A stretch of 64,000 nt of DNA from Daphnia pulex (lineage: Eukaryota > Arthropoda > Branchiopoda > Diplostraca > Daphniidae). A model generated the notes under the pieces. The model was not told where the DNA came from. It was given only the letters and a program-made list of their open reading frames with translations, and did no database searches. Below, piece after piece: positions 1 through 50,150 of the stretch. Within the stretch, counting starts at the first letter, position 1; each line of letters opens with the position of its first letter. The stretch spans positions 642,501 through 706,500 of the forward strand of contig NC_060028.1 in assembly GCF_021134715.1 (NCBI RefSeq), in the 5' to 3' direction. A program made the translations under genes and the position numbers.

Positions 1-71
1 TCCAATTCCTCATCGGCTGCGCTTTACCACCGCCTCTGAGCTGCTTGGCTACTCGAGACCTACAGCACTAA
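1..71 (+). CDS. FEM1-like protein, left-arm copy (3' end only)
   Basis: These 71 bases are the exact reverse complement of the last codons of the FEM1-like gene at 10845-12527 and end with the same TAA at 69-71. The rest of this copy lies left of the window. It reads rightward, toward the palindrome loop, while the right copy reads leftward. Whether the copy is complete cannot be judged here. Confidence 0.8.
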   Translation, partial: QFLIGCALPPPLSCLATRDLQH

Positions 72-626
72 AGTGGCATTCCATTCGACGATGATGCAGA
101 CGACGGTTCCGCCCACTCTACAAGCCATTCTTCATCAACATTAATCAGAACATTCCATATGGAAATTAAAATTTCAGTGTTTAGTTTTACTTTTGATTGA
201 TTTGACACTGTTCTGTCAGTTGCTTTCAATAAATTTCATTTAAAAAAAATACATTGTTTCGCTTATTCATTAGTTTGATTGTTTACCAAGTACCTCACCT
301 AAACGGTGAAAGTCAGAAAAATTTGAGAAATTTACAGCTAATATAGATACCCATTGCCGATTTGGAGTTCTATTTATTTAAATGTCTTTTGATTAGATGC
401 GCACTGCTGGAAGTGACAGAAAAATGAACCGGCTGCAGCGGGAGATTTGTTCACTTGATTGCTGTTTGTTCGACGAATTAGTCTAAAACAGTAGGCCTAT
501 ACCATCCTATTTTTCGAGCGCTATAACAAATCAGTTTTTTGTTTTGAACTGGCTTCCATCCATCGATATAAAATAAAACATTTTGGCGGAGGCATTCGTT
601 TATCAAAACAATGTGCTACTCAGTAT

Positions 627-982
627 AAATGTTCTGGGTTTGATGTTTTTTGACATCGGTTTGACGGATTGTGGAAAAACACTTAATGATCTTGGAGCCG
701 GCCTATTCCTTCCAACGGCGATCTTCCGGCCCTGTCTGGTGGACTAGCTACGACTGAAGGTAGGCTATGACGGTGAAGATGTATAACGTCGGCTGGGTCT
801 TTCTAAATGGCGGAAGCGGAAAAATGGAGGAATTTAAAACTGGCGGAAATTTTTTTTGGGTTTCGCATTTTTCGGTAGCCCCGGTAGGTTATTTCGCTGG
901 ATCGTGTTTCCAGTTTCCACGTCATCCGGCGGAAGAAAAAAAAAACTGTTCGAGCAAAGGGAATTAACACCCGAAATGCGAA
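627..982 (+). repeat. Dispersed ~355-bp segment, left-arm copy
   Basis: This segment occurs three times in the window: here, inverted at 9934-10289, and at 26583-26937 in the same orientation as the right-arm copy. Its edges are defined where the third copy stops matching (TTCGCATTTCGGG at one end, CCCAGAACATTT at the other). It contains a 66-codon open frame that survives in all three copies with changes, but I see no domain in it. It lies just downstream of FEM1-like sequence at each place, so it may simply be FEM1 downstream flank carried along by duplication. Confidence 0.7.
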
Positions 983-1389
983 ATCGACATAACATCAACA
1001 CTTTGCTTTACTTTAAATAAATTTAAACACAAAAGCGCAAAATAATTTTTTAAAGACCGGTAATTTTAAAATTTAAATTTTTTTAAAACAAGATAGCAAA
1101 ATTAAGTGAAAATCAAACCAAATCATGTTACCGTTCATGCTATATAATTGCCAATTTGCCATCAGCCATAATGCAATCTGCTGCTGATATCTGCTAGTCC
1201 GCATAATTGCAACATTTGTTTCACGCACATTATAACAGTCATCGGCAATTTATTTTTAAATCAATGTTTCAAATTTATTTGAGAATTCAATTCCGTTACG
1301 ATTTAATTCTTAGTGCCTTAAAAAATATTCTCATTGTCAATTTAAGTAATAGTTTTTCAATTAAAACGTAGAAAAATGAATATCATAAT

Positions 1390-1790
1390 TGATAACGGTG
1401 GTTTGATGGTCAGCAACACAGGCTGCCATACCAGGGGACTAAGGTTCGAATCTCGGACCAGGCACACATCGAATTTGTTAGCCATAAGCTACCGTAACCT
1501 AGTAACACAAGTGATTGATTCTATTGTTGAGCGCAATAGAGGGCATGCCTAACGGTGAGGCCATGGGACGATACCTGCTAGTACTGCTAGCACTCCGATG
1601 TTCCATGGCTGAAGCATATTATTTCAATATTATATATTAGTAGTACGCTAAAGATTTAGTTGGTTGATCAGCAAAGCTCCTTGGGTCGATCTTTGGGCTC
1701 GTCTAGGTTTCTAAGACCGCGTCCATCGGGCCAACGGATCTAATCGTTAGGACTTCACGTTCTTCGTGGTTGAAGTTTTTTTTTTTTTTA
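1390..1790 (+). repeat. tRNA-derived SINE-like element, left-arm copy
   Basis: A near-consensus RNA polymerase III A box (TGGTTTGATGG, 1399-1409) is followed 34 bases later by a B box (GGTTCGAATCT, 1443-1453), as in a tRNA gene. The sequence between them does not fold as a proper tRNA. About 300 bases of tail follow, ending in a short hairpin (ACTTCAC...GTTGAAGT) and a run of 14 T. This layout fits a tRNA-derived SINE. The family is not recognised and no target-site duplication was found. Confidence 0.55.
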
Positions 1791-2565
1791 ATATAATGTT
1801 ACAAATAATTATAAAACAATTAACAATCATTGATCATCAATGATACAACCGTAAAACGTAGTTCAACTCGGTTGAACTACTCAGCAAAGCGCTTCAACGC
1901 GCAAATCGCTTTTTATTTAGACTAATTCCGTCGACTATAGGCAATCACGGTTGTGCATTGGGTAAGAATAGAAACGCTTCGACAAATAAAACCTAACCAA
2001 CGTTGAAATCTATGCAGTCGTCAGTTAAAATTTGTGTTTTACAAAATGGGTGATAATAAATCGCTATACTCGGAATCTTTGCGGGTAAGCCTTAATCTAC
2101 GCTATGGCGACGCAAACGAGCAAAACCTTATACGCAGAGTAAAACCTTCAGTTTGCCGCAAGAAATTATTCATCGCCTGAATAAAATGGACTACGGAGTA
2201 ATAATAAAAGAATAAAATTTACTGAAATTATAACCAAGTCTGAATTGCATATTGCCAACTGGAAAAGTCTCGTTTGGGACCTACGCGATTACTACCTTAC
2301 GGGTAATGCCAGCAGTTGGCTTCAACCCCTTTCAGCTTTATTAATCGCCCCAGTAATGAAAAACACCAAACTAAAATTTTTTCTACGTCCCTTTTGCTGA
2401 CTTTAAACCCAGAAAAGGGCAGCGACGACCTTTTTTAAATCGATGTCACTCTGCCCTCTCTTACATCACTAAAGAAGGGGTGGAGAGATTTAAAAAACCA
2501 GTAAAAAGAACCCATAACATTCCAAGGACGAATCTAAATGAAAATCAATTAAGTATTAGCAGGTG

Positions 2566-3219
2566 TGAAAATCAAATTAAGAGGGAATGGCTGATACTGG
2601 CATTTGTGGTTTTAGTTTTAGTTTACCAAGTTTATTCCTTACATATTTTCTGGTAGAAGATGCCGATCATTTCCATGTTCTATATTGGTATAAATTCACT
2701 TTGGGTACCAATCAAAACCAGTAAACGGACGATAAATTCACCTGAAAGTAAATGAAAAGCAGAAAAAGAAATTTGTGAATGATGAAATTTTCAAAACCAC
2801 ACCCACAAGAAATAAAAAAAATTTCAAAACCCCATCCGCGTTCACGATTAATTGTTTGATTTAATTAAATGAATGGAAATATGGAATACTATTAAAAGTT
2901 TTAAACCCTGTGGGCGAATGTTGGCAACGTCTTATCTTTTGAAGATGGCACGATACGTGACTCAATCGGACGGTAATATTCCATATTTAATATAGTGGAA
3001 ATTTGGCAGACTGTCTTTGGACTTTGTTCACTCCACATCTTTCTTAAAGGTCAGTTTTCTGTTTGTGTCTGTTCCTAGTTCTGAGTATTTAATTTTGAAG
3101 TGCTAAAGTAGCTAACGTTTTACTTAACTATGTATATACTTATGGTAATTTTATAATTTCTAGCTATTCATAATCTTTAGATGTAAGTACATGTTTAAAT
3201 CTTGTTGTTTTACTTGCAG
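2566..3219. other. Left loop margin and probable 5' leader of homeobox copy 1
   Basis: No gene is recognised at 2566-3000. From about 3012 the sequence matches the upstream region of homeobox copy 2 at about 48655. The shared part includes a conserved donor-like site (CTTAAAG followed by GTCAGT, at 3043-3054), suggesting an untranslated first exon. No initiating ATG was found in this leader in either copy. Confidence 0.5.
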
Positions 3220-4037
3220 ATTATTATCCAGTTGTTTCCACTTTGAAATCTTCTTCTGGATCAGGACGTCAGCGCCACTTTTACGACGAGGTCCAACTGG
3301 AGCTACTGGAAGCAGAGTTCGCCAGGGATCCATTTCCCAATCGAGAAGGTCGTCGCCGCATTGCCCAGTTGATTGGCGTCTCTGAGAAATCGATTATGGT
3401 ATGTCATTTTCATCTAATTCAATTACCTGAAATTAATTTGTTTTCTTGATTGTATTAGTGGTGGTTTCAGAATCGCCGTCGACGAGCCCGCAAACTTGGA
3501 TCTTCAAGAACCGCAACTTCAACTCGCGAAACAAACCGCCAACATCGTCGATCACCGCCTTACGTTTCTCGTCAACGTCGACAAGGTATAAGTTTATATT
3601 GGATTGAAAAGAATTATGGGATTGATTTAACTTTCGTCTTTTGTTTTTAATTTGCAGATACTTACGACTCCGCTCAAGTCCTTCCAACTCCTGGATTCTA
3701 TTCTCATCCACCGGTAGTTCCAGCCCCCGTGGAACCAATCAACTACTCTACGTCCGGATCATCATCGTCGTCGCCACTTCAATCCGAATGGCTTGCTACC
3801 AGCTGTCCACAAGACGTCGTTAGTCCCCAGTCCAACTACAATAACTCGGATGGAACGCATCAGCAACCACAGCAGCAAGACTATTCCTCCTACTACTGGA
3901 ACAACTGGGATTATTCTCCTCCTTTCTATCCAACTACAATGACAAATTCGACTTTTTACTCCAACACTGTTCCTGATCCGTATTCTTCGTCTTACAGTTA
4001 CTATTCACCTGAAACAACAAATCAGTCGTGTACGTAA
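3220..4037 (+). CDS. PRD-like homeobox transcription factor, copy 1
   Basis: Three coding exons are visible: 3220-3398, 3459-3585 and 3658-4037. Phases agree across both introns (60 and 72 bp). They encode a homeodomain followed by a Ser/Tyr/Gln-rich tail. Homeodomain landmarks are R5, Q12, L16, F20, W48, F49, Q50, N51 and R53. Position 47, normally Ile or Val, is Trp. The first intron falls between homeodomain residues 46 and 47, a site characteristic of PRD-class genes, and there is no paired domain. The protein should be a nuclear DNA-binding regulator. The start codon is missing from this stretch and must lie in an upstream exon. A close paralog lies at 48860-49698; this copy ends in NQSCT where the other has NPYYYQYCM. 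The exact family is not recognised. Confidence 0.8.
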
Positions 4038-4531
4038 ATTTGTTAATTGACACCGATTGACACATGATTGACAATAGAATAAATCACGATAAATATCTTA
4101 AAAAGCTTTTACCTTTTTTTTAAAAAAAGTTGGTGAATCAGACGCTACCTATTTACATATTCGACGGCTAATAGATAGTGCCGTGCACAGAGCACGAATG
4201 AATGCCAAGGAGTTATCGGTTTTTCTATGTTTTTCATCAAATTTACTTAACAGATAAGGTATACTGTACCTTCCCGATCGATCAAAATACGCGAGCAATT
4301 TTTGTTACTATTTATTCCAAGAAAAGATTCGTTGCAATATTTAATCGAAAAGTTCATTTTTCAAGTGACCTCGGCAAAATAAAAAAAAAGTCTACCGTCT
4401 CGAGAATGGACCGACATCAAAATTAATACTAAGCGATGCAAATTTCCCGTTTTAAAAAATTTCAATTAAAATTAAGCCCTCCCCACTCGCCCCCCGTGAT
4501 AAACTAAAATTATTTAAACCGTTGAGAACAC
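4038..4531 (+). repeat. Copied 3' flank of homeobox copy 1, ending in a CUB-gene remnant
   Basis: This flank aligns with the flank of homeobox copy 2 (49699-50168). The match ends sharply at 4531, partner 50168. The last 18 bases (4514-4531) correspond to the final codons and stop of the CUB/LDLa gene that follows copy 2 (VFSTV then TAA on the minus strand). At 4514-4531 there is no CUB gene, so the fragment looks like a passenger of the duplication. Confidence 0.65.
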
Positions 4532-4813
4532 TTTGCCAACATCTTAATTTGGTATGCCATGTATTTCTAATACTGCACTTTAAACGACGTTCGAAATGTG
4601 CAAGGAAAATATGTAAGTGAACACAGCAGGAAAAAAACGAAGGACAAATGTCAAATGGAATCAGAAATCCATGTACAATACGAGAAATACCCAAAAGGCC
4701 CAACATTCCTAAGTCCTTACCATCTCGACGCTGTTTTCTTTTCAACAATTTCAAAGGTTTAACGCCAAAGTATTACAGCATGACATTGCGAACTAACATT
4801 GCGATTGCGTTTT

Positions 4814-7392
4814 TTACGCCACATAGCTATATTCAGCCGTTGAATTTTCGGTCCGCTTCAGGTACTCCTTTTCAATTAGTGTCTCGATGTTTTTTTTTAT
4901 CAAGATAATGTCAGGATCGAAACGGGTTTTGGCCAGACTCGACACCTCCCGAATTAAGTCTTTGTGGAGAAGAATCTTCCTATCTTTCATGATTCGAACA
5001 ATTGTAGCCTGGGGAAACACAATAAAAAGAAAAGTCAGATCTCTAATGCATTACGCTAAAATATTCATAAGTTTCTTACCTGAAGGTATAGATTCCTGTC
5101 TAAGTTTACGGAAGAATGCGTCGTCTCGGTTTCTTGGACAGTCTGCTCCTTCTTGGCAGTGTTGCTGATACGAAACTTGGTTCGTTTGTTGCTATAATCC
5201 AAATTGAGGGAAATGACAGTAGAAGCTTGGAAAACTTTGACAGTGTCACCAGTTACTGCCAAAAGTTTAGCGTTAACCAATGACTGAACGGTCTTTTGGA
5301 AATGATCCGGGTTAAGCTTCGTGGCTTCCATGAGTTCTCCACAAGTCAAGGAATCGGTCTTTTGAAACTCAAGAAACATTGCCATTTCGAAGGTCCCCAT
5401 GGTGATGAAGTAATACTTTTCTTTCAATTTCAGTTTCAGCTCTCCGCAACTCAAGTGATAAAGCCATGTAAGCTTCCGGCCGTCAAACTGTAGACGATAG
5501 AAATTTTCAAATTCCTGGACCGATTTTTCCAACTCTTGGGGTACGGCGAAATCGGTAGGGCAGACTTGTCTAGGCCACGCACCGGTTTTCAAGACGTTGA
5601 TTGAGAAATTGAGACCTAATTCAATCCGATCTTTGTTCAGCAGATTAAACTTGTTGTTCAGGTCTGATGAAACGGACATGTCCGTTAACATCTGATGAAG
5701 TTTGTTGGTAAACTCAAATCCGCATGCCAGTTTCAATCGGCTGATCATTTCCTGTTCAGCGTCCATACTTTGACTCTGTTGTTGAATTAGTCGAGTTCCC
5801 AACAGCAGTGAGTAAAATTTTTGAAACACGTCCTTGTCGTCGATGTACTTGAATACAGTAATGCACTGTGTTAACTTATCGTCAACTTCGGTGTCACAAA
5901 AGCCTTTTGTTGACTTTTTCAAGAGTGTGTCAGAGTATCTGGCTAGTTTTTCTGGATGAGACTTGGAATGTTGTCCAGTAATGATGAGGTTATGTTTGAC
6001 GACTGCAGTACAGGCATTATCTAGAGCGCTGCTAAATAGCTGATCATTACTGAAAACAGTGTTGGTGATCTCTTTGTACTTGGAGTGGAATCTATGCATG
6101 CCCTCTACGAACTGGTGAAATTTGTTGTCTCCTGACAGGTTAGCCACTGTTCGCAATCCTTCTTGTGTGATGTGTTCCTGGAAGTGCGAGACTAGAACAG
6201 TCAAACCTCCCGGAATCGACTAAACAAATTTTCGAAAACATTAAAATTTATGCTACAAGGCATTAAGATTAGCTCTCACCTTCAATAGCTCGTACGCATT
6301 TCCAAGATTTTTATATTGTTGTTGTTCCTGCATCTTCGGGCACTCGTTGTGGATAGCCGCCAAGTTATCTGCTATCATCTTTTTTTCGAATTCACTTCGA
6401 ACTTTACTGTAGGAACTTGGTTGCAAGAATTTCTGACTGCGTAAATCTTCTTCGTCCCGACGTTGCAAAGCTTTTTCCATGTACAAGGAAATTTTGCATT
6501 CCTGTAACAAGCGACTAGCTTCTTGCCTAAATTTGACAAACAACTATAATATGCAACTTTTTACCTTTAATCAATTTTTTTTTACCCGTAATATTCTCCA
6601 GTGGCTTCCAGAAATGGCCTTTCAAAAACGGTTTCATAAAGTACCATCTTGTTGTGTTCCTTGTTCTCTGTAACTGTAACCAATGACTGAATCACACCCT
6701 TAATTGTTGATGACTTTTCATTGTACAAAGATTGTCCAGTTCGGTCACAATGTATGCCTCCCAAAAGTAATCTCAGCAAGTTGGATTTCAATGGCTCAAT
6801 CATACACTTCTTCCACAAATCCAAACCTAGTAAGCAAGTTTTGATATAACGATTCAATACACCAAAATATTACAGATAGTGATTTATACCTAATGCACCA
6901 ATTTCTTTCATTAGTTTAGGTAATTTAAAATCACCCCCCTCTGAATGAAGCCTTAGGAGGTCTTCATCAGTTACTCTTGGTTGTTTTTTTATGTGTTCTG
7001 TGTTCAAGTGTCTGTATTTGAATAAAAAATGTATTTAGTACTTGTTTCATTTGAGAACAGAAATTAATAACTTACGTGAACAGATAGTCCAAATTGTACA
7101 TTCCTCGTCTATATTGCTTCCAAAGTTTGTAATACACAGTCAGAAGGTGTTCTTCACTGGTGCCGTTCACTTGGATGAGAAGAGAATTAACATGAGCTTC
7201 TAAAAACATTTTAATTTCTTGGTATAATCTCGAAGCAAAAGTTGGTTTGGCCTTGCACAGGGAAACCACATCACTGATTCCACTATTCCATGCAGTACGA
7301 GGAACAGTTCCCAGAGTAATAAGACCTTCAACTGTTTTTTTTAAAACATCCCAAGTTTCGCCAAAGTCTACACGTTTTTGTTGAAGAGACAT
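4814..7392 (-). CDS. CUL2: Cullin-2, scaffold of CRL2 ubiquitin ligases
   Basis: Six coding exons (7392-7076, 7011-6890, 6826-6586, 6526-6280, 6219-5080, 5008-4814) splice to exactly 2,262 bases, 753 residues, close to the 745 of human CUL2. The N-terminus (MSLQQKRVDFGETWDVL) follows CUL2 rather than other cullins. The cullin-homology region includes FKYIDDKDVFQKFY. The C-terminal winged helix has the neddylation motif IVRIMKDRK with the acceptor Lys at about residue 697 and ends in EYSYVA. CUL2 binds Elongin B/C with VHL-box receptors at its N-terminus and RBX1 at its C-terminus. No break was seen. The gene sits in the palindrome loop. Confidence 0.95.
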
Positions 7393-8350
7393 TTTGTGCA
7401 GTAAGTCCTAAACTACAGATAATATTGATATTGTCAAATATCAATGAAAAGACCTTATTTACTTTTAGTAGGCACAGACTAAGATTATAAAGACGACTAT
7501 CTCCTATACAGCCAGTGAGGATCATGCTCGTGGCTCCCGCTGCGGCGCTGCGATCGACTTGGAGGAGACTTTTCTGTGAATCTTTATCCCTACTGATTGG
7601 AGTCTTCACACACCTTAATTTTAAAAATTGACTTTTTGTGCTACATTTTTACTTTTTACTTTGTTATTTTGTTCGTGATTTCTTGATCCCGTAATGAAAA
7701 TGTAAAAAAGATTGGTTTATGTATTTGTGCCGTAATAAATTGGTTTTATAGACACCCTTTCTCGCTTATTTTGTGACGAATTATAATGAATCGTGAAACG
7801 CTGGATTCTTGTGTCGTTTGGAATTCAAGATAATTTAGGCGCGATGTGTGAATTATGATATTTATGTTGTACGAATCAAGTAACAAAACCCAGAAATATT
7901 ATGTTATTCATTAAATTAATCAATATGTTACAAATTTTATCATTAAATTGACTTTATTTATTTTGACTTTTTTTACATATCGCATATGTGATCAACTTTT
8001 ATCACAACATTGTATCGTAAAAATGAAATAATTTTAACGCGGAACAAATTTGGCAAGTCTCATAAAATGAGATACTGATAACGGATGCACTCAATATTAC
8101 TTTTAGTTGCTAAGTTGATCTATCTACCTTAAATTGAATTGTTTACATTCACCATTCAATAAAAAAAATATCAAAGACAAATATAAGAAAACAAAAGCAA
8201 AATTGTGAATTTTACTTTTCTGTGTGTTGTGGCCACAGCGAAGTGCCGATTGCGGTTGTTTTATAGGTTGATATCCAACCGCAGAAATATCCAATAAAAT
8301 TCAGAAAGGTTTCCTTGATGCAAAAAAAAAGTTGCGTGAATGCAGTGCAG
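7393..8350. other. CUL2 upstream region
   Basis: The first ~200 bases are probably CUL2 leader and promoter; no clear TATA box was seen. The rest, up to the arm boundary at 8351, is AT-rich with no recognisable gene or repeat. Confidence 0.5.
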
Positions 8351-9125
8351 CACCTGCTAATACTTAATTGATTTTCATTTAGATTCGTCCTTGGAATGTT
8401 ATGGGTTCTTTTTACTGGTTTTTTAAATCTCTCCACCCCTTCTTTAGTGATGTAAGAGAGGGCAGAGTGACATCGATTTAAAAAAGGTCGTCGCTGCCCT
8501 TTTCTGGGTTTAAAGTCAGCAAAAGGGACGTAGAAAAAATTTTAGTTTGGTGTTTTTCATTACTGGGGCGATTAATAAAGCTGAAAGGGGTTGAAGCCAA
8601 CTGCTGGCATTACCCGTAAGGTAGTAATCGCGTAGGTCCCAAACGAGACTTTTCCAGTTGGCAATATGCAATTCAGACTTGGTTATAATTTCAGTAAATT
8701 TTATTCTTTTATTATTACTCCGTAGTCCATTTTATTCAGGCGATGAATAATTTCTTGCGGCAAACTGAAGGTTTTACTCTGCGTATAAGGTTTTGCTCGT
8801 TTGCGTCGCCATAGCGTAGATTAAGGCTTACCCGCAAAGATTCCGAGTATAGCGATTTATTATCACCCATTTTGTAAAACACAAATTTTAACTGACGACT
8901 GCATAGATTTCAACGTTGGTTAGGTTTTATTTGTCGAAGCGTTTCTATTCTTACCCAATGCACAACCGTGATTGCCTATAGTCGACGGAATTAGTCTAAA
9001 TAAAAAGCGATTTGCGCGTTGAAGCGCTTTGCTGAGTAGTTCAACCGAGTTGAACTACGTTTTACGGTTGTATCATTGATGATCAATGATTGTTAATTGT
9101 TTTATAATTATTTGTAACATTATAT

Positions 9126-9526
9126 TAAAAAAAAAAAAAACTTCAACCACGAAGAACGTGAAGTCCTAACGATTAGATCCGTTGGCCCGATGGACGCGGT
9201 CTTAGAAACCTAGACGAGCCCAAAGATCGACCCAAGGAGCTTTGCTGATCAACCAACTAAATCTTTAGCGTACTACTAATATATAATATTGAAATAATAT
9301 GCTTCAGCCATGGAACATCGGAGTGCTAGCAGTACTAGCAGGTATCGTCCCATGGCCTCACCGTTAGGCATGCCCTCTATTGCGCTCAACAATAGAATCA
9401 ATCACTTGTGTTACTAGGTTACGGTAGCTTATGGCTAACAAATTCGATGTGTGCCTGGTCCGAGATTCGAACCTTAGTCCCCTGGTATGGCAGCCTGTGT
9501 TGCTGACCATCAAACCACCGTTATCA
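9126..9526 (-). repeat. tRNA-derived SINE-like element, right-arm copy
   Basis: This is the reverse-complement copy of the element at 1390-1790, carried by the palindrome rather than inserted independently. A box, B box, tail hairpin and homopolymer are unchanged. Confidence 0.55.
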
Positions 9527-9933
9527 ATTATGATATTCATTTTTCTACGTTTTAATTGAAAAACTATTACTTAAATTGACAATGAGAATATTTTTTAAGG
9601 CACTAAGAATTAAATCGTAACGGAATTGAATTCTCAAATAAATTTGAAACATTGATTTAAAAATAAATTGCCGATGACTGTTATAATGTGCGTGAAACAA
9701 ATGTTGCAATTATGCGGACTAGCAGATATCAGCAGCAGATTGCATTATGGCTGATGGCAAATTGGCAATTATATAGCATGAACGGTAACATGATTTGGTT
9801 TGATTTTCACTTAATTTTGCTATCTTGTTTTAAAAAAATTTAAATTTTAAAATTACCGGTCTTTAAAAAATTATTTTGCGCTTTTGTGTTTAAATTTATT
9901 TAAAGTAAAGCAAAGTGTTGATGTTATGTCGAT

Positions 9934-10289
9934 TTCGCATTTCGGGTGTTAATTCCCTTTGCTCGAACAGTTTTTTTTTTCTTCCGCCGGATGACGTGGA
10001 AACTGGAAACACGATCCAGCGAAATAACCTACCGGGGCTACCGAAAAATGCGAAACCCAAAAAAAATTTCCGCCAGTTTTAAATTCCTCCATTTTTCCGC
10101 TTCCGCCATTTAGAAAGACCCAGCCGACGTTATACATCTTCACCGTCATAGCCTACCTTCAGTCGTAGCTAGTCCACCAGACAGGGCCGGAAGATCGCCG
10201 TTGGAAGGAATAGGCCGGCTCCAAGATCATTAAGTGTTTTTCCACAATCCGTCAAACCGATGTCAAAAAACATCAAACCCAGAACATTT
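9934..10289 (-). repeat. Dispersed ~355-bp segment, right-arm copy
   Basis: This is the mirror of 627-982. The third copy at 26583-26937 is collinear with it. It lies about 550 bp downstream of the FEM1-like stop codon. Confidence 0.7.
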
Positions 10290-10844
10290 ATACTGAGTAG
10301 CACATTGTTTTGATAAACGAATGCCTCCGCCAAAATGTTTTATTTTATATCGATGGATGGAAGCCAGTTCAAAACAAAAAACTGATTTGTTATAGCGCTC
10401 GAAAAATAGGATGGTATAGGCCTACTGTTTTAGACTAATTCGTCGAACAAACAGCAATCAAGTGAACAAATCTCCCGCTGCAGCCGGTTCATTTTTCTGT
10501 CACTTCCAGCAGTGCGCATCTAATCAAAAGACATTTAAATAAATAGAACTCCAAATCGGCAATGGGTATCTATATTAGCTGTAAATTTCTCAAATTTTTC
10601 TGACTTTCACCGTTTAGGTGAGGTACTTGGTAAACAATCAAACTAATGAATAAGCGAAACAATGTATTTTTTTTAAATGAAATTTATTGAAAGCAACTGA
10701 CAGAACAGTGTCAAATCAATCAAAAGTAAAACTAAACACTGAAATTTTAATTTCCATATGGAATGTTCTGATTAATGTTGATGAAGAATGGCTTGTAGAG
10801 TGGGCGGAACCGTCGTCTGCATCATCGTCGAATGGAATGCCACT

Positions 10845-12527
10845 TTAGTGCTGTAGGTCTCGAGTAGCCAAGCAGCTCAGAGGCGGTGGTAAAGCGCAGC
10901 CGATGAGGAATTGGAGGTTTGGATCAGGATTGCCCTGACTGGCAAGTTGGTTTTGCCATTCCTGAAACAGCATCAAGGGTGTCGAGCCGCTCACGTCCGA
11001 TTGGTATATTTCGGCGCCGTATTCTATCAGCAGATTAGACTGAGCGAGATTGCCACGATTCATGGCCAGTAAGTGGAGGGGAGTCGCTCCGTTGAGGTCA
11101 GCTGCGTTAGGATCGGCTCCGAGTCTAAGGATCATCTGGATGATGGACAGCGTCCATTGTTCGTCCGGTTCACTAACCTCATTGTCTTCTTCACGATAAT
11201 CTCTGATTAGTTCAAACTTCACTACGTCAGTTTCGTCCTCAGACATGTCATCTCCGATTTCTTTATCGCCGCGTGACAGACATTCGTCGCTCTCGCTGTC
11301 CATTTGTTGGTGAATTGCAGCGAACGTATGATCAATACTCTTCAGATGGCAAAGTGTTTGTAAAAAATTGTGATTGGCGTTTCCCCATCTCTGATCTTTC
11401 AGTAAGAATTCATGAAAACTTCGCTTGAACTTTGTGCGATCCTCATCACTCCATTGCGGCATCAGCTCACTGGACCAAAAAATCAATTGCACTAAGACAC
11501 TTGCCAGACCGAGCAGAGTGCTCCGGTCAATATTGCGTAGTTGGCGATTCCCTTGCAGATAGGACATGTAGTGACTAGTGAAATTGAACATTGCCATGAA
11601 ACTGGCAAACGAAAACTCCTCTTGTCCCGGCCTTTCTTGTAGATTGATGATGCTCGTCTCAATAATGTCGAGGGCCCAGTTGATGATTTGACTCGTCTTG
11701 AATCCCTTCCAGTGTTCAAGTGCTTGTGATTGCTGTAGGACGTACATCAACATGTGTATGGCGCGGCCGCTCTGGCCTTGGCGGAAGGAACAAATAGATG
11801 CCCAATGGCACAAGAAGGCGAGATTGAAGATATGAGGACCAGGATGGACCTTGTCCAGGACTCGCTGGCTGACCAAAACTGCTTGGGTGAAGAGCTCGAG
11901 TCTAGACAGCTGCTCCAGTTGTTCTAACGTGACTGCAAACTCGTTTGGCATTACGTCCGCTTCACCATGGACCGTCGATTGGCGAAGATGCAGGGCTGCC
12001 CTCCAGTACATGAGGCCGTTTTGCGGGGCTGGATGCGTTTCGTAAAAGTAAAAATTGACTGCGCCCATCAGTTCCAGAATGTTGATCTTCTCCTGTCGGC
12101 CGTTGGGACTGGAGACGATGGACTCGATGATCATTTGGGTGGTTTGCTGACCGGCTCGCACTTCAATGGAAAGAAGATAGGTGGAAATGTCTAATTCTCC
12201 GCAAACGATAGCCGCGTACAGCGCTGGAACGTCCAGGTGTTCGACGCCACTGCACACGAATCGTCCAATTTTCCCGATGGGAACGTCCAGTTTGTCGACC
12301 AAGAATTTGACCATGTCCAAATTTCCTTGCTGGATGGCCACCAGTAGAGGGGTCTGCCCGTGTTCGTTGTACGATTTTGACAATTCGGTAGTCACTGCCT
12401 TTCCGTGGATGTTGAGAGTTCGAATCAAATCCTCCCTGGAGCCTCTGGTTACCGATCCAAAAAATGCCTCGCAGTCCGCATAAGTCATCATTCTCGGCAC
12501 CATATCATCATTCGCACGAGATTCCAT
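10845..12527 (-). CDS. FEM1-like ankyrin/TPR protein, putative CRL2 substrate receptor
   Basis: This is a single-exon frame of 560 residues. Ankyrin-like repeats lie at about 56-90 and 98-128. They are followed by the FEM1 hallmark ILELMGA (about 155) and a TPR-like helical region (about 170-400). An acidic linker comes next, then two ankyrin repeats (ADPNAADLNGATPLHLLA, about 470; GAEIYQSDVSGSTPLMLF, about 505). The C-terminus PLSCLATRDLQH matches the BC box of FEM1 proteins (human FEM1B SLKCLAARAV) and stops there. FEM1 proteins recruit substrates to CUL2-Elongin B/C-RBX1. Compared with human FEM1B (about 627 residues), the N-terminal ankyrin array is much shorter and the Cul2-box tail is absent. 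The first in-frame ATG was taken as start; a second Met follows at residue 9. Confidence 0.85.
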   Translation of the reverse strand: MESRANDDMVPRMMTYADCEAFFGSVTRGSREDLIRTLNIHGKAVTTELSKSYNEHGQTPLLVAIQQGNLDMVKFLVDKLDVPIGKIGRFVCSGVEHLDVPALYAAIVCGELDISTYLLSIEVRAGQQTTQMIIESIVSSPNGRQEKINILELMGAVNFYFYETHPAPQNGLMYWRAALHLRQSTVHGEADVMPNEFAVTLEQLEQLSRLELFTQAVLVSQRVLDKVHPGPHIFNLAFLCHWASICSFRQGQSGRAIHMLMYVLQQSQALEHWKGFKTSQIINWALDIIETSIINLQERPGQEEFSFASFMAMFNFTSHYMSYLQGNRQLRNIDRSTLLGLASVLVQLIFWSSELMPQWSDEDRTKFKRSFHEFLLKDQRWGNANHNFLQTLCHLKSIDHTFAAIHQQMDSESDECLSRGDKEIGDDMSEDETDVVKFELIRDYREEDNEVSEPDEQWTLSIIQMILRLGADPNAADLNGATPLHLLAMNRGNLAQSNLLIEYGAEIYQSDVSGSTPLMLFQEWQNQLASQGNPDPNLQFLIGCALPPPLSCLATRDLQH

Positions 12528-12996: not shown

Positions 12997-13667
12997 CGAT
13001 AGCTATTGAAGGTGAGAGCTAATCTTAATGCCTTGTAGCATACATTTTAATTTTTTCGAAAATTTGTTTAGTCGATTCCGGGAAGTTTGACTGTTCTAGT
13101 CTCGCACTTCAAGGAACACATCAAACAAGAAGGATTGCGAACAGTGGCTAACCTGTCAGGAGACAACATGTCTGCCCAGTTTGTAGAGGCGGGCATGCTT
13201 AGGTTCCACTCCGAGTGCAAAGAGATCACCGATACTGTTTTCAGTAATGATCAGCTATTTAGCAGTGCTCTAGATGAGGCCTGTGCTGCAGTCGCCACCC
13301 ATCGCCCTAATTATGAACCCTAATTATTAAACAACCTTGTAAGTCTTCAGAACTACTTGCCAGCGTTTTTACATTTTTTTTAAATTTTAATTAATTAAAT
13401 CTAGGAAGATTCTTCGCCACATCGACTTAATTCAGGAGGTGTTGAGCCAGATCTAAACCCGATTCGCTCCTTCTATTAGCTTGATAAAAACGTGCATTGC
13501 GACACTGATTGAAAAGGAGTACCTGGAGCGGACCTCAAGTTTGATGTACGAATATAGCTATAATGTGGCGTAAAAAATGCAATCTCAATGTTAGTTCGCA
13601 ATATCATTCTGTAATACTTTGGCGTTTAAACTTTTAAAATTGTTGAAAGGAAAACAGTTTCAAGATG
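12997..13667 (+). pseudogene. CUL2 pseudogene, internally deleted
   Basis: The sequence matches the CUL2 gene on the opposite strand. It starts at the end of exon 4 (AGCTATTGAAG then GTGAGAGCT), runs through the following intron and the start of exon 5 (frame at 13087-13323), then jumps to the last exon (about 13395-13575) and its 3' flank. Roughly 1 kb of the exon 5 region and the intron after it is missing, and the last part is out of frame with changed residues. Because introns are retained, it arose by genomic duplication, not retroposition. It lies immediately upstream of the FEM1-like gene and reads away from it. Confidence 0.85.
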
Positions 13668-14502
13668 GTTTTTACATTTTTGTGTTCAATTTAAGAAAGT
13701 GGAAACAAATTTGTGTGTTTATTCACACGTTCATGTAAACCAGAACTAGTCTAATTGTCTAAATAAACTCTACAGTCTTTGATAATAGGGCAACACCGCT
13801 TGTTATGGCAGTTAACTTAACTTCGTCTGCACTCTGCTTGCAAGTTGCAACTGCAAAGTGCGAGGTATTCAGGTACGTACTCTTTTACAGTACCTGACAT
13901 TTTTCGTCTTAAAAATGGTCAGTAAATGTAATAGGCCAATAAATGTATATGTTTTCGTAGTGAATTTTCAGGTAACAAATTATACCAGTCAATTCCGTCG
14001 GATCATGTGGCCTGAAACTGCTGTAAATTTTCCCAAAATGTCGTATCTCGCTGCATGTGCCGGCTGTACGTTTCCTCAAATGCAGAAAAACTTCAGAACA
14101 ATAAAAGGGATTATGTTGATCAGGGCCATGATGTTGATCAACTTCTAACGGTTCCTTCAGTAGCAATGAAGATGGATTGTGGTCGAGTTTTGTTTACTGT
14201 GAATTGTGATTAATGACTTCATTAGTCATTAGTGGCCTATCGAATGATGGCATTAGTTATATTTCAGTTGAATTTTCTAAAAGTAGAAGGTGTTCCTTTT
14301 TCATTGATTGAGATGTCAGTTTCAGCGTTGTGAAATATTTTTAATAATTGGCAAGTAAGAACTAAATTTGTTTTTGTTTTAATAATTTTATAGTTGGATG
14401 ACAGTCCAATGGAAGCCAAGGGAAGATTCCCCTCCTGCCTTATCTGTGATCCAGTGAAATGAGGGCCGGTGGCAAGTCATCTTCCGAACTTTCCCAGTGC
14501 GG
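13668..14502. other. Intergenic, no recognised gene
   Basis: Open frames here are short and have no recognisable domain. A short phrase at about 14165-14195 resembles 16958-16988 (GATGGA.TGTGGTCGAGTT), so a small dispersed repeat may be present. Confidence 0.3.
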
Positions 14503-19102: not shown

Positions 19103-19960
19103 ATTTTTTAATAGTTGGCTGTGGTGTCGTGCTGCTGTGGAGTGTTGTATCGTTGATGACTGAGTCGGCCACTGGTGTACCGACATCTCCTGAGGATGCT
19201 GGATGCGAAATCGCAGCGCCGTCGCCTAATCACAAGACAACATGGGTGACAACCAGTTAGGCAGTTACTACACCAAGGCATTGGACGACTATTCGACTAC
19301 TCTACAACCTACGCTGCTCCAACTTACTACCTCGAGGCTACCTAACGTTACTCCTCTCCAGTTACTACACCGAGGCTCCAGTTTATTACATCACCGAGGC
19401 ACACTAGTACACAGAGGATCCCAAGCACTACACAAACAAACCACCGGAGTACTACACAACTACGTATGCTGCCCAAGCTTACTACACCAAGGCTTCCAAG
19501 TATTCTCTGCTACCAGCTACTACACCGATGCCCCAAAATACTACCCTTCCCCTAGCTACATACTCGCAACTGATCCGGTCAAGTACTACCCATCACCTAC
19601 TTACTGCGCAGCGGCTGCTCCATCTTACTACGTTGATCCTAACTACTACACCATGATCTACGCTGCTCCAGGCTACTACACTGAAGCTCTGTTAATTACA
19701 CGGCACTCGACTATGAAACCACTGCTTCCGCTTCTCCGACCTACTACACCGAAGCATTACTCTTCCCCGAATTACTGCAATATTAAGGCACTTGCATATT
19801 ACACCACAACCTACGCTTCCTGCCTACTACGAGGAGGCCTTTAATGTGAGATTTAAAATGTCGTTTCATGTTCAGAAATTGTGACATCTTAATAATTATT
19901 GTCAATTGTAATCGATTGTTAATTTTAAATGAGCCAACCGGAAAAATAAAATTTTTAATG
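19103..19960 (+). pseudogene. Tyrosine-rich (YYT repeat) secreted-protein gene copy, decayed
   Basis: After an acceptor at about 19101, the frame encodes a hydrophobic leader like that of the copies at 33.9 and 34.5 kb (GVVLL.SVVSLM, then GVPTSPEDAGCEIAAPSP). It hits TAG at about 19258. Beyond it, codons for YYTEAP / YYTTTYAAP-type repeats occur in more than one frame, so several frameshifts separate them. A 200-codon open frame at 19242-19844 mixes repeat and out-of-frame sequence and is not a real protein. The 3' flank, including AATAAA, matches the copy ending near 35290. No start codon or first exon was seen. Confidence 0.7.
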
Positions 19961-26582: not shown

Positions 26583-26937
26583 TTCGCATTTCGGGTGTTA
26601 ATTCCCTTTGCTCAAACAGTTTTTTTTTCTTCCGCCGGATGACGTGGAAACTGGAAACACGATCCAGCGAAATAACTTCCAGGGGCTACCGGGAAATGCG
26701 AAACCCAAAAAAGTTTTCCGGTTTTTAAATTCCTCCATTTGTCCGCTTCCGCCATTTAAAAAGACCCAGCCGACGTTATACATCTTCACCGTCACCTTCA
26801 GTCGTAGCTAGTCCATCCGAGAGGGCCGGAAGATCGTCGGAAGGAAGGAATAGGCTGGTCCAAGATCATTTTAAAGTGTTTTTTTTTCCACAATCCGTCA
26901 AACCGATATGTCAAAAAACATCAAACCCAGAACATTT
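26583..26937 (-). repeat. Dispersed ~355-bp segment, third copy
   Basis: This copy is collinear with 9934-10289 with scattered substitutions and small indels. A FEM1-like fragment follows at once, as though the ~550-bp spacer and FEM1 3' end had been deleted. Confidence 0.7.
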
Positions 26938-26944
26938 TTACAAT

Positions 26945-27125
26945 CAAGTCGTCACCAACCGAGCCCTTATTGATGTCCGGTAAATCATTCCCAGTGTCGC
27001 TGCTGCTCCTGTCAAATTCGCTATAATCCAAGTCGCTGATGCTGTCCAGCAACTCGTGAATCCCAGCAAACGTATGATCAATACTAGACAGATATCTTTG
27101 TCAGTCTCTGACAAAGTTGTTAATT
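26945..27125 (-). pseudogene. FEM1-like gene fragment
   Basis: On the minus strand the sequence reads SSIDHTFAGIHELLDS, matching SIDHTFAAIHQQMDS of the FEM1-like protein (about residues 394-408), followed by an acidic Ser/Asp-rich linker like that protein's. The upstream part (about 27080-27125) resembles NFLQTLCHL but is not open. Only about 50 codons remain. It lies between a copied FEM1 downstream segment and the RBX1-like gene. Confidence 0.65.
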
Positions 27126-27748: not shown

Positions 27749-28314
27749 ATGGCTGATGATACTCCCGTAATGGATGTTGAAGAGAAAGAAGAAGAAAAGC
27801 CTTCATCGTCCAATGTGAAGGGTGAGGAGAAACGTATTGAAGTTAGGAAGGTAACATCTTTATCTGTGATGTTATTGATAACTTGACTGATAAATTGTTT
27901 GATAAACTTTTTAGTGGAGTGGAGTTGCCACGTGGAGTTGGGGTAAATTAAAATACTGTCACAAACTTGTTATGATTGCTGATTTCTACAGTCTCTCTAT
28001 TCTTAGATATTAAAGTCGAAAACTGTGCAATCTGTCGTAATCACATTATGGAACTCTGCATTGAATGTCAAGCCAATCAGGCTTCAGCTACTGGTGAACA
28101 ATGCATAGTTGCCTGGGGTGCCTGCAATGTAAGCGAATATTGATTTTTATTCCTTTCAGTTCTATAAGGATAAAAAGTATATTCAAAAAATTCTTTTGAT
28201 TTACAAATATTTCAGCATGCCTACCACTACCATTGTATTTCTCGCTGGCTGACGACTCGTCATGTATGCCCACTGGATAATACCGAATGGGAATTAACAA
28301 AATATGGACATTAA
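27749..28314 (+). CDS. RBX1-like: RBX1/ROC1 RING-box protein, divergent paralog
   Basis: Exons 27749-27850, 27915-27942, 28007-28128 and 28216-28314 splice in phase to 116 residues (human RBX1 has 108). An acidic N-terminus leads to the cullin-binding strand ([17 protein letters not shown]) and a complete RING-H2 domain: [33 protein letters not shown] and [17 protein letters not shown]. All zinc ligands and the E2-contacting Trp are present. RBX1 recruits the E2 enzyme to cullins, including CUL2 at 4814-7392. Residues that are almost invariant in animals differ here (WAWDI to WSWDI, CNHAFHFHC to CNHAYHYHC), so I expect it is a paralog beside a more conserved copy elsewhere. Confidence 0.92.
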
Positions 28315-33697: not shown

Positions 33698-33871
33698 CGA
33701 GTGACTGTCTCCGACCCGTCAGAAGCTGGAACGCAATGTGTCATTAACTGAATTCTTCTTATACGCAATATCGGGTACATATTTGTTTGTTGAGCTTAGA
33801 ATCAGTTTAACTTTCTTGCTATGATGTGTCACTTGTTACTGTAATTTAATGTTCACACTATTTATTGTCTA

Positions 33872-34276
33872 GTTAGCTATGGCGTCGTGCTGCTTTTGGA
33901 TGTTGTATCGTTGGTGATTAGGGTGATTAGGTCGAACATTGGTGTACCAATGTCCCCTGGGTATGGCGGATGCCAAGTCGCAATGCCCCCGTTTTACTAC
34001 ATAACATCAGCAACAAAATACGCAACGACCATTTGGTGTAACGACGTCCCCAAGTACTACAGCGAAAGGCCGAGTCGCGTTTGCTGCCCCAGTTTACTAC
34101 ACCGAGGAACCCAAGTATTAATCTGCTCCAAACTACTACCAAACAGAGGCTCCTGTTTACTACACCACCAACGCTCCCGAGTATTACTGAGTAATTACGC
34201 TCCCCCTGACTACTGCACTGAAGCTCCAAAGTACTACACCATCAGTGCACATTGCACAACCATTTCGTGTCCATAG
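33872..34276 (+). pseudogene. Tyrosine-rich repeat-gene copy downstream of promoter 2
   Basis: Following the acceptor TCTAG at about 33871, the exon encodes SYGVVLLLDVVSLV, then GVPMSPGYGGCQVAMPPFYY and tyrosine-repeat pieces (PKYYSE, PDYCTEAPKYYT). Other repeat units lie in different frames. The upstream exon corresponding to ATGG in the first copy reads ATCGG here, so the start codon appears lost. Together these suggest a non-functional copy. Confidence 0.6.
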
Positions 34277-34545: not shown

Positions 34546-35290
34546 TAAGCTATGGTGTCGTGCTGCTGTTGGTTGTTGTATCGTTGATGGGTGAACCGAA
34601 CACTGGTGTACCGATATCTCCAGAGGATGGTGGATGCGAAATCGCAACGCCGTCGCCTAACCAAGACAACATAGTCAACAACCAGTTACTTCACCAAAGC
34701 ATCGGAGGACTTCACCAAAACCTGTGCTGCTCCGCGTGTTGCTCCAGCTTGCTGTCTTGAGACAACGTTACTCCGCTTCCAGCTACTACACCTAGGCTCC
34801 AGCTTGCTTCACCACCGAGGCATCGGATTGTTACACACCTACCCACGCTGCTCCAGTCTCCTACATAGAGGATCCCAACACTACACATCCAGGGCACCGG
34901 AGTACTACACGACTACGTATGCTGCCCAAGCTGACTACACCAAGGCTCCCAAGTGATCTCTGCTAGCAGCTACTACACCGAGTCACTAAAATTCTACTCT
35001 GCCCCCAGCTACACACTCGCAACTGAGCCGGCCAACTATTACGCAGGCAGTACCTACAAACCACTGTTTACGCTTCTCCGACCTAACACACCGACCGAAG
35101 TATTACTCTGCCCCGAATTACTACATCAGTAAGGCACTTGAAAGTAAAACCACAACCTACAATGTGAGATCTAAAATTTGTGTTCGATGTTGATGTGATC
35201 AAATCTTAAAAGTTATTGTCAATTGAAACTGATTGTTGATTTTAAATGCAATAAATTGGTAATGCGGAAAATTGGAGCAAATAAAATTGG
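34546..35290 (+). pseudogene. Tyrosine-rich (YYT repeat) gene copy
   Basis: After the acceptor TTTAG at about 34545, the exon reads V-S-Y-G-V-V-L-L-L-V-V-V-S-L-M-G, a clean signal peptide, then GVPISPEDGGCEIATPSP. Tyrosine-repeat coding (YYTTTYAAQ.DYTKAP and similar) follows but shifts frame and meets stops by about 34760. The 3' end with AATAAA matches the copy at 19.1-19.96 kb. Intact relatives would be secreted, tyrosine-rich structural proteins (inference). I saw no full-length member in the window. Confidence 0.6.
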
Positions 35291-37855: not shown

Positions 37856-39460
37856 GGTCGTCGCTATTGCAACGTCAGGCTGACGTTGCTATAGTGTATT
37901 TTGGCTATTGCAACGTCAGGCCGCTAGGTGCGCTGCAGTCTGACGTTGCGCTATGCTGGAGGCTTGGAGCAACGTCAGGCCGCTAGGTGCGCTGCAGTCT
38001 GACGTTGCGCTATGCCAGCGCATAGCTATGCTGGAGGCTTGGAGCAACGTTAATGAACCATTTAATTTTAATGCTACAAAATATGTAGAGAATATAAATT
38101 TCAAATAATGCTAATAATATGTAATAGCTGCATAATATGTCAGAGAGAATCAATCTGACGTTCTCTATCCGTCTTTACCGTCTCTATCCTACTTGACTTC
38201 GTCGCTGCAGTCTGACGTTGCTCTATCCCAGCGCAACCGAGTCGCTTTCTTAATCTTAAGCTTGGAGCAACGTCAATAACTACTTAATGCTACAATTCAT
38301 GTATAATGTTTTATACTGCCATAATATGTTAAAACTCCTATGAATTTATAGAGAATCAATCTGACGTTGCGCTATATATTCCTACATTATACATATATTG
38401 CTGGAGCGTTTGCGTTGCTTACCCGAATCTCTGATCCTAATCTAATCCTACCGCCAAGCCTACCGCTGAGCCTCTCTTTATGACCATGCTGAACTTACGT
38501 CAGGCCGCTAGGCGCTGTAGTCTGACGTTGCGCTATCATATTGCATCCCATTCCATTCTTACAGCTTTATAATACTATAACAGGATCCCGCTTAAATACT
38601 GTATGAATGTTTTGCCAAATCCCGCCAGGAAGAAATTCCATCAGATGATATTCTCATTATTGTTCCGTTAGCTCACCGATTTGCACAACTTTTACTGGTT
38701 CTCTTTATTTTTCTTTTTGGACACTTTTAAAAATTAAAGCATTAGTTTCATATGTCCAATGATTTTGATCCAGCGCCTATGACGGGGGTAATAGCCTAGC
38801 AGTAGAGGGTAGCAAACGTCAGAATTAAAGGGCCTGACGTTGCTCCGGGAAATACTTTACTACACTAAGAGGCCCATTACGATAGCGCAACGTCAGACAA
38901 CAGCGCACCTGACCGTAGCATTAAAATATGAGTTGGCTGACGAAGTGAAGAATGATAGCGCAAATTCAGATTGATTCTCTATGAATTTATAGGAGTTTAT
39001 ACATACTGTGCAGGTCGGGATGCAGGTATACAACATTATACACGAATTTTAGAATTAAGTAGTTGGTTGACGTTGCTCCAAGCTTAAGAAAGGGACTCGG
39101 GTACGCTAAGATAGCGCAACGTCAGCCTGCAGCGACAAAGGGAAGTAAGAATAGAGCAACGTCAGATTGATTCTCTCTGTCATTTTATGCAGCTATTACA
39201 TATGATTTTTAGCATTAAGTGGTTGGTTGACATTGCTTCAAGCCTCCAACATTATTTTAGCTATAGAAAGGGACTCAGTGCGCTGGGATAGCGCAACGTC
39301 AGACTGCAGCGCACCTAGCGGCCTGACGTTGCTCCAAGCCTCCAGCATAGCTATGCGCTGGCATAGCGCAACGTCAGACTGCAGCGCACCTAGCGGCCTG
39401 ACGTTGCAATAGCCAAAATACACTATAGCAACGTCAGCCTGACGTTGCAATAGCTTTTTC
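37856..39460. mobile_element. Foldback DNA element with long repeat-built arms
   Basis: The left arm (about 37864-38560) and right arm (about 38790-39453) are imperfect reverse complements around a ~230-bp centre. The outer ~250 bases are nearly identical. Each arm is made of subunits that start and end with the mini-inverted repeat GCAACGTCAG ... CTGACGTTGC, many enclosing CCGCTAGGTGCGCTGCAG; the motif or a close variant occurs more than twenty times. No transposase is encoded. GGGCTTCAAA flanks both ends. The structure matches Foldback-type elements. The outermost 7-8 bases of the two ends do not match each other. Confidence 0.8.
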
Positions 39461-42467: not shown

Positions 42468-44853
42468 TTATCCAATCAATGATAAGGTGACTGCTTCATC
42501 CTCTGGAAACTGGGCTCTTTTCTCCGCATTCGGCACGTACCTACGGCCGTCGAATCTCTCAAAATGAACCCAAATTTTATCATGTTCGATGGGAACAGCC
42601 GCAGGAAGGAGCTCCAAGGTTTCTTTAAGATAACAAAACAAAAAAAGATATTTAGATGGTTATTTGATATTAAATCTTATTAGTGGTCCAGAAACGCATA
42701 ATTGGTTACCTTCAGGAACGTTTAATTGAAATTGGGGGTTAGATTCATCACTATCAAACATCAAGATATGATAGTGCGGCTGATCTTGGCTGGGAATGAC
42801 TTTCTTTGTTCGGGAACAAGCTTCATCTTCATCAACTTCCTCATGGTCCGAATCATCATCGCTTGTCACCTTGGATTTCCATTCATTCGATTTTTGGAAC
42901 TTCACATTCCAAGACACAATAACGCAAGGCTTCCTAAAGTTGAATCCTCCCCATTTTTTGTAATTGCAAATCACAACGAGACCAACTGAAAATTTTAACG
43001 AGGACGGCCGATGATGAACAGTTTTCTGAAAAAGACAAAACAATAATGAAAGGGAAAACTTTGCACATTAAACATGTAACCTCACCGCTGCAGCGATTTC
43101 AGCTTTTTGTTCGTTGAGCTTACTGATACATTTCCCTAGCATGTTCGATGGACTCAGAGAATAAAAGTAACCAATAAAAGGTTTATATTCTGGAGACTGA
43201 AAATAATTCTACAATTAAACAACAAGAATTAATCGTATGAATTTGTTTATACAGTACGGTGGATATCATACTTGAAGTAGTTGGATTGCATCGTCTAATT
43301 GGATGCCCAAACGGATACAGTGTTCTGCGTAGCACATGATTATGTTTGGGTTTTGGGGTGACATGGAACACTCCAATCGTACATAGAATGACAAAATGTC
43401 TCTCATCCTTTCCAGCCCATATATTCGATCATATAGGTGCCGCCTAAAATACGTTATAACTTCTAGCATTTCAAACAAAACAGAGTCGACTGACGCTGCT
43501 GGTTGTTCTCTGAGGGATGGATACAAACTTGACTGGTTTAAATACCCTCCACGAAAGACGTCAATATAAATGCTATCGTCGTCCTCTGATCTAAAGAAGG
43601 GAAACCAAAGAATCTTACAATGTTAAACTGTATAGCAATAGTTTATGCTGTTACCCGGCTGAATCCTTCCATCTAAGAAGAAGAAGAGGACGGTTCATAA
43701 TCATGAAATCCGGGAGATTATTTTCGTATTCTCTATTATTCTGTTTACAATAAACCGCCTCACAAAGAATGCCCATTTTCCAAGCCACTTCCTGATAGAT
43801 GGCACACAAAACTGCTGGACAACCTTCCTTTCTTTCAAACGCCTTCAAAGTATGGAGAACGAACGAAAAATATAAATAAATAACATTAGACCTTGATCAG
43901 CATTGCATTTTAGCCAAATTGATAAAGTTGCAAGGCATACCTGTTGAAAATTACTATAGAGTCTGCGATCAGTATAAAAATTTGGAAATTTTTTAAAACC
44001 CAATTCATTGAACATAACTTGGTTTATGGAATCCAAAATTTTAAGATTTTTCTTCTTTGGATCATCAGTGCTAGCACATGATACTTTTCCCACTTCCAAT
44101 TCCAGCAGTTGTTTCACTCTATCAGTTATTTTTTCAATGGAGCTTTCCAGGTTTTTCAAACAAGTTTGTCCTTTTCCATGTCCCAATGTTGACCACTGTG
44201 ATATAAGTGATACTCCCTCAAACAGAGACTTTCGAGATTCTGGTTGGGCCATAAAATCTCTCCACTTTTTGTCCAGTATAGAGATCCTCACTTTGACTAA
44301 TGCATCTCTGGCATAGTGAAGTGTGGTTTTATTTTCTCTTCTAAAGAAAATCAAATGTTGGTTATGTTTAAATTTCTACATGAATTAATTGATAGTCACA
44401 TTTTCTTGTCATCGATGATTTCTTCAAGTTCATTCTGCACATATTCAGGAATGGGATATGACTCCGCAATCAACTCATTGATCACAATGAGGGGAGATTG
44501 ACCCAATGGATAAGCTACAGAGGACATGTTTTGAACAGCTTTTTGGACTTCTTTTGCTTTCTTCAATCTCATAGTTGTCCACTCAAACCAAACATTTTCA
44601 TAGCTATTGGGAGTCTGCGAAAGAAAATTGCCCCACCTGTGCAACAGTTTTTAATTGTAAAAAGAAAGCAAAAACATTATTAGTTTAATCACCTTTGAAT
44701 GAACTTGAGCCTCCATAGCTCATCTGATTCTCGAATAATATTGTATAAAGGCCGACAGGAAACCATAAGACTTTGCAAGTCAGATATGGAAATAGTATCC
44801 AGTGAAAAGATGTAACATATTAAAACTTCGTTAGGCAAAGAAAGAAGACTCAT
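42468..44853 (-). CDS. FBXO21: F-box only protein 21
   Basis: About eight minus-strand exons between 44853 and 42468 give a protein of the FBXO21 layout. The F-box is at the N-terminus (MSLLSLPNEVLICYIFSLDT). The transglutaminase-like/SirB1-type region follows (HYARDALVKVRISILDKKW; FNELGFKKFPNFYTDRRLYS; GCPAVLCAIYQEVAWKMGIL). A YccV/HspQ-like hemimethylated-DNA-binding domain is at the C-terminus (KFSVGLVVICNYKKWGGFNF; FERFDGRRYVPNAEKRAQFP). FBXO21 is a substrate receptor of SCF (CUL1) ubiquitin ligases. I start at 44853, where the F-box begins; an in-frame Met at 44919 would add 22 residues. No break was noticed. Confidence 0.85.
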
Positions 44854-49698: not shown

Positions 49699-50150
49699 AT
49701 TTGATATTTGACGCATGATTGACAGACAGTCGAATAAATCACGATAAATATCTTAAAATCATTTTACCTTGTTTTAAAATGTTGGTGAATCACACGCTAC
49801 CTATTAAACGGCTAACAAATAGTAGCGTACACAGGACACAAATGAATGCCAAGGGGTGGTCGGTTTTGCCTTTGTTTTTCATCAAATTTACTAGACAGAT
49901 AATATATACTATACATTCCCGATCGAATTGATTTTTTTTTTCTATTTATTACCAGAAAAGACTCATTGCCATATTTAATCGAATAGTTCATTTTTCAAGT
50001 GGCCTCGGCAAAATAAACAAAAAGTCTACCGTCTCGAGAATGAACCGACATCAAAATAAATAGTAAGTGATTCAAATTTCCCGTTTTAAAAATATTCTAT
50101 TAAAATTAAGCCCTCCCCCACTCACTCCCCCCGGAAGAAACTAAAATTAT
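49699..50150 (+). repeat. 3' flank of homeobox copy 2 (shared with copy 1)
   Basis: This matches 4038-4513. A shortened, diverged version of its later part also lies downstream of the second CUB gene (about 54840-54997), which shows that the CUB tandem duplication carried some of it. Confidence 0.65.

Follow-up and report, generated by a model that had tools for sequence, protein, structure and literature searches.

Exact inverted arms around a CUL2 gene in Daphnia pulex, with a young fold-back duplication as a candidate origin

Arms, loop and the genes between them

A palindrome with exact arms encloses the gene for the cullin CUL2 at the start of a 64-kb stretch of the Daphnia pulex genome (contig NC_060028.1, positions 642,501 to 706,500; these 64,000 nucleotides are referred to below as the window). 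The left arm (1-2565, plus strand) and the right arm (8351-10915, minus strand) are exact reverse complements over their visible parts. Base-by-base pairing at a constant coordinate sum of 10916 gives 0 mismatches in 2565 pairs and no gaps, and BLASTN returns a single opposite-strand match of 2565 bp between them at 100% identity with 0 gaps. Mismatches begin abruptly at 2566 and, from 2751 inward, number 170-192 per full 250-pair bin, which delimits a unique loop, or spacer, of 5,785 bp (2566-8350). An earlier interpretation of this DNA, here called the sequence-only reading, had claimed perfect arms at this sum, a unique loop of about 5.8 kb and a CUL2 gene inside it; alignment of 1-2565 with the reverse complement of 8351-10915 shows zero differences, the loop has the proposed size, and its CUL2 gene is complete. 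The window edge cuts the match, so the arms presumably continue past it, as that reading also held. A chance origin of 2565 exact base pairs can reasonably be rejected.

The visible arm contains little open sequence, the longest stretch between stops in any frame being at most 71 residues, and the mirrored part of the right arm stops inside a FEM1-like open reading frame (ORF) described below. A 32-base pattern from the arm had no match in a viral contig and a genome contig collection, neither of which consists of animal genomes. A stretch at about 1393-1625, with its mirror in the right arm, carries the motif GGTTCGAATC. We take this motif to resemble the B box of transfer RNA (tRNA) genes, and the stretch is perhaps a tRNA-derived short interspersed nuclear element.

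The loop CUL2 gene (4814-7392, minus strand) was modelled by hand as six exons (7392-7076, 7011-6890, 6826-6586, 6526-6280, 6219-5080 and 5008-4814) encoding 753 residues, with GT-AG borders in 5 of 5 introns. The best match of its protein in the PDB is cullin-2 (residues 1-753 against 1-745, E 6.8e-208), with 695 bits to the CUL2 chain versus 430 bits to the best CUL1 chain, and the large exon matches the Pfam Cullin family (E 2.2e-95). The protein begins MSL, as the CUL2 chain does, and the N-terminal extension is present with its Leu3, the residue that enters the Elongin C pocket in the published complex (PMC4878042). A pattern search for CUL2 relatives in the non-animal genome contig collection yielded 22 pattern matches and zero relatives. 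A homeobox gene lies in the loop as well, on the plus strand (3220-4037, ends approximate, last open frame 3729-4037), recognized by a Pfam Homeodomain match of a hand-joined peptide (E 1.7e-13). BLASTN and TBLASTN place an 87.6% similar copy of this region at 48636-50168 (plus strand), in the same orientation.

A pseudogene fragment of CUL2 lies beyond the FEM1-like ORF at 13001-13669 (plus strand, opposite to the loop gene). It spans intron 4, the beginning of exon 5, then exon 6 and the 3′ flank, in alignments of 297 bp (92%) and 276 bp (82%); the intron is kept, a stop codon lies inside, and most of the gene is missing. A hand alignment shows 15 differing columns in the exon-5 part, one of them a gap; vertebrate CUL2 sides with the loop copy at 7 of these columns and with the fragment at 2. 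Exon 6 has 22 differing columns, of which 5 favour the loop copy and 7 the fragment, the loop gene being about as changed from vertebrate CUL2 as the fragment is (7 versus 5 of 22). From this count, the loop CUL2 may be outside ordinary constraint in exon 6. The opposite assignment, with the loop gene as the degraded copy and 13001-13669 as the better one, is not supported overall, given the stop and the loss of most of the gene in the fragment; its exclusion is less than clean, for the exon-6 count speaks against change confined to the fragment.

The FEM1-like reading frame and its broken tail

According to the sequence-only reading, FEM1-like genes occupy both arms, as two tail-to-tail copies flanking the gene for their own cullin scaffold. 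A FEM1-type ORF is indeed present, listed as one exon of 560 residues at 10845-12527 (minus strand), but only 71 bp of it (10845-10915) are mirrored, the other 1,612 bp lying at 10916-12527. All that is visible of a second copy is the mirrored tail at 1-71 (plus strand), with 22 complete codons and a stop; in a TBLASTN search with the ORF, the final 22 residues align there at 3-68 (plus strand), with 22 of 22 positions identical. The second gene was thus an extrapolation from these 22 codons and their stop.

The assignment to the FEM1 family draws on several partial likenesses. Residues 52-293 match FEM1C best in the PDB (E 2.4e-14), and Pfam recognizes ankyrin repeats, with a C-terminal ankyrin match at about residues 459-525 that provides the two C-terminal repeats of the FEM1 family. 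A PDB search with the whole ORF gave 332 matches, of which the best 60 comprise ankyrin proteins and designed repeats but nothing named FEM1; queried separately, the middle region did not match FEM1 either. The FEM1 family combines N-terminal ankyrin repeats with a TPR region. The ankyrin block here is shorter than that of FEM1B, for which six repeats are described (PMC10943247). No FEM1-like relatives were found in the non-animal viral contig collection, and an alignment-free structure model was too poor to use (mean predicted local distance difference test score, 42.0).

The C-terminal VHL box of FEM1 proteins is made up of a BC box that binds Elongin C and a Cul2 box that binds CUL2 (PMC10943247, PMC4878042). 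The ORF keeps a BC box in its own frame, PLSCLATRDL (10854-10883, minus strand; mirror at 33-62, plus strand), which fits the consensus given in PMC4878042, and stops two residues later. A Cul2-box-like stretch, VPPTLQAIL, which fits the corresponding consensus from the same source, lies past this stop in the +1 frame (10784-10810, minus strand; mirror at 106-132, plus strand), and no Cul2 box is found in frame. In the +1 frame, VPPTLQAILHQH followed by a stop aligns with the terminal IPRTLEEFVGFH of FEM1B. The interruption between the two boxes is common to both arms.

To gauge the specificity of this match, the 84 bp at positions 62-145 were shuffled by single bases 300,000 times and read in any of three frames. 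The loose Cul2-box consensus is common (32,935 of 300,000 shuffles). A strict pattern arose in 1 of 300,000 shuffles and occurs twice in the six frames of the window, although this pattern was written after the FEM1 tails had been seen and the test is in part after the fact. Its two occurrences must be the two arms, the right one having the pattern because it is identical to the left. A 66-residue query spanning the frame change had no PDB match up to E 10, a result that counts against the tail being easily identified. Support for the Cul2-box assignment accordingly comes from consensus, position and shuffles.

Probably, then, either the FEM1-like gene has suffered damage or the sequence contains an error at the frame change. 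As read, the encoded protein might bind Elongin BC and should not dock normally on CUL2. The out-of-frame Cul2-box-like stretch, present in this state in both arms, is why the layout is not read here as a working unit of receptor and scaffold: whether the gene is damaged or the sequence erroneous, a usable pairing of the FEM1-like receptor with the loop cullin is not established.

Diverged copies and the origin of the arms

The other long duplicates at the locus have diverged: the CUL2 fragment is 82-92% alike, the homeobox copy 88%, and a 360-bp piece of the arm 89%. This last piece, found by BLASTN, occupies 623-982 (plus strand) in the left arm and 9934-10293 in the right, and its diverged counterpart lies at 26583-26941. 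Adjoining that counterpart is a FEM1-like relic at 26996-27094 (minus strand), with 33 residues 51.5% identical to the ORF (TBLASTN E 0.001) and 47 of 62 bp identical (E 8e-9, for 1.9 kb searched against 1.5 kb). Sequence at the locus has therefore been copied repeatedly, with copies that drift. CUL2, FEM1-like and homeobox sequence has been duplicated here on more than one occasion, the older copies having drifted and the palindrome arms not.

Perfect arms among drifted duplicates could mean that the palindrome is older and that gene conversion between its arms, of the kind seen on mammalian Y chromosomes, keeps them the same. In Daphnia, conversion between homologues occurs at measurable rates (PMC12926508, PMC7820357). 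However, nothing at this locus tells conversion from youth, and in the springtail Folsomia candida palindromic blocks vary widely in synonymous divergence (Ks), from which the authors of that study concluded against concerted evolution there (PMC5490193). We regard conversion as an unlikely source of the identity.

Our preferred reading, to which we assign a probability of about 0.5, is that a fold-back type of event recently gave rise to an inverted segmental duplication with a unique spacer, at a duplication-prone locus. In this mechanism a broken or stalled end would fold back some 5.8 kb away, and the folded end would copy the neighbouring stretch in reverse, taking in the 3′ end of the FEM1-like ORF with its flank and perhaps more; the CUL2-homeobox segment would remain as the loop. 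Human inverted duplications with a unique spacer have been explained by fold-back of a broken end, and 21 sequenced human junctions of this kind have spacers of 766-70,466 bp, with a median of 3,428 (PMC3907307). The 5,785-bp spacer at the present locus falls within this published range and is likewise unique. With 0 of 2565 differences, divergence of the arms would be under about 0.117% (95%). At Daphnia mutation rates of 2.3e-9 to about 8.9e-9 (PMC12926508, PMC7820357), and absent homogenisation, this would place the arms at under about 65,000-254,000 generations.

Several points count against a young fold-back duplication. It is read from a single assembled sequence, and the outer arm ends lie beyond the window, whose edge truncates them. 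Inverted microhomology at the fold would be part of the arm and visible only against the ancestral sequence, and the age bounds hinge on an assumed species and hence on assumed rates. Zero differences are equally expected if the assembler used one sequence twice.

That last point leads to the main rival, an assembly artefact in which reads were reused, or a mis-join occurred at a graph repeat or a heterozygous inversion, so that a single FEM1-like locus stands beside CUL2. It is a serious possibility, though we hold it less probable than duplication. The arms are identical to the last base and share the same frame interruption; the authors of a palindrome survey admit false positives by mis-assembly (PMC7953838), and scaffolding errors were suspected in another palindrome study (PMC5916493). 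Two particular forms of artefact nevertheless fit poorly. A read turned back on itself should give touching arms with no spacer, and this form is rejected in view of the gene-bearing 5.8-kb loop. A join of two haplotypes is disfavoured as well: with a synonymous diversity of 0.012-0.017, as reported for D. obtusa (PMC12926508), it predicts about 31-44 differences per 2565 bp, and zero were found. Furthermore, the 64-kb window contains zero N. The sequence-only reading had named gene conversion, youth and artefact as the three candidate causes, a choice we consider right.

Taken as a duplication, the palindrome is best read as belonging to a known kind of structure, the inverted segmental duplication. 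Human nonrecurrent fold-back inverted duplications likewise consist of inverted copies around a normal-copy spacer of similar size, while those cases from that study that were compared here are megabase-sized and lie beside terminal deletions (PMC3907307); here the outer ends fall outside the window. The palindromes of mammalian Y chromosomes and the collinear palindromes described in Adineta vaga and Folsomia candida are also gene-bearing reverse copies on one molecule, but they hold several genes, whereas the visible arms at this locus carry the tail of one ORF. The palindrome survey omitted D. pulex for want of annotation (PMC7953838). No report of the present arrangement appeared, by title or abstract, among the literature matches listed, which is no proof of absence; one paper that joins FEM1, CUL2 and Daphnia concerns crab Fem-1c. 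If biological, the palindrome would be a fresh inverted duplication caught before divergence, with a complete CUL2 in its spacer, in a group whose mutation and conversion rates have been measured directly. If artefactual, it would be a useful caution to anyone who infers palindromes from assemblies.

RBX1, gene linkage and other features of the window

At 27749-28311 (plus strand), about 20 kb away from the CUL2 gene of the loop, the window contains a complete gene for RBX1, the RING protein that partners CUL2. Its hand-made model has four exons encoding 116 residues, matches Pfam zf-rbx1 (E 1.7e-23), and finds RBX1 in the PDB at E 5.1e-52 versus 1.1e-24 for the best RBX2 chain; its RING-H2 is of the RBX1 type. 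This neighbour, the loop homeobox gene and the CUL2 pseudogene fragment had all been missed by the earlier interpretation. The CRL2-FEM1 ligase consists of CUL2, RBX1, Elongin BC and FEM1B or FEM1C (PMC10943247, PMC4878042). Of its components, CUL2 and RBX1 are complete here, and the FEM1-like ORF shares ankyrin repeats, a FEM1C-like stretch and the BC box, though it seemingly lacks several N-terminal ankyrin repeats and has no in-frame Cul2 box. A search of the window for Elongin B and Elongin C was negative, the best Elongin C match having E 0.76.

This proximity could suggest a selected cluster of ubiquitin-ligase genes (CUL2, RBX1, FEM1-like) in which the palindrome raises receptor dosage. 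The chance of one named gene falling this near another is about 0.03%, by an after-the-fact estimate for a single gene pair in an assumed genome of 129.4 Mb, the size reported for D. obtusa (PMC12926508). Set against it are the post hoc nature of that figure, the failure to find Elongin B and C in the window, and the out-of-frame position of the Cul2-box-like stretch, and we give such selection hardly any credence. Slightly less improbable, though still a long shot, is a genome where CUL2 and RBX1 are physically linked to a FEM1-type receptor that is being multiplied by inverted duplication, keeping its BC box and having lost its CUL2-binding box. Such a receptor, if real, could sequester substrates and Elongin BC as a decoy, and so might serve as a dosage switch in a pathway responsible for sex determination in nematodes. 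As a lead, the fact that CUL2, RBX1 and the FEM1-like ORF are linked is more interesting than the palindrome, and it can be checked in published cladoceran assemblies.

Elsewhere in the window, a YccV-like domain is encoded at 42663-43067 (minus strand; Pfam E 2e-8), which we take to be perhaps part of an FBXO21-like F-box gene, from another family of cullin-ligase receptors. A 4-kb tandem duplication (50149-54028 and 54996-58984, 73% alike) includes one open frame with a weak LDL-receptor-A match below the Pfam cut-off. A diverged inverted repeat, also 73% alike and with short repeats inside, lies at 37863-38375 and 38955-39454. The gene styles of the window (tyrosine-rich proteins, a cuticle protein, a C1q-like protein and short introns) are suggestive of Daphnia. 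Tyrosine-rich open frames, apparently of one repeated family, occur at 19230-19841, 33845-34276 and 34935-35129 (plus strand).

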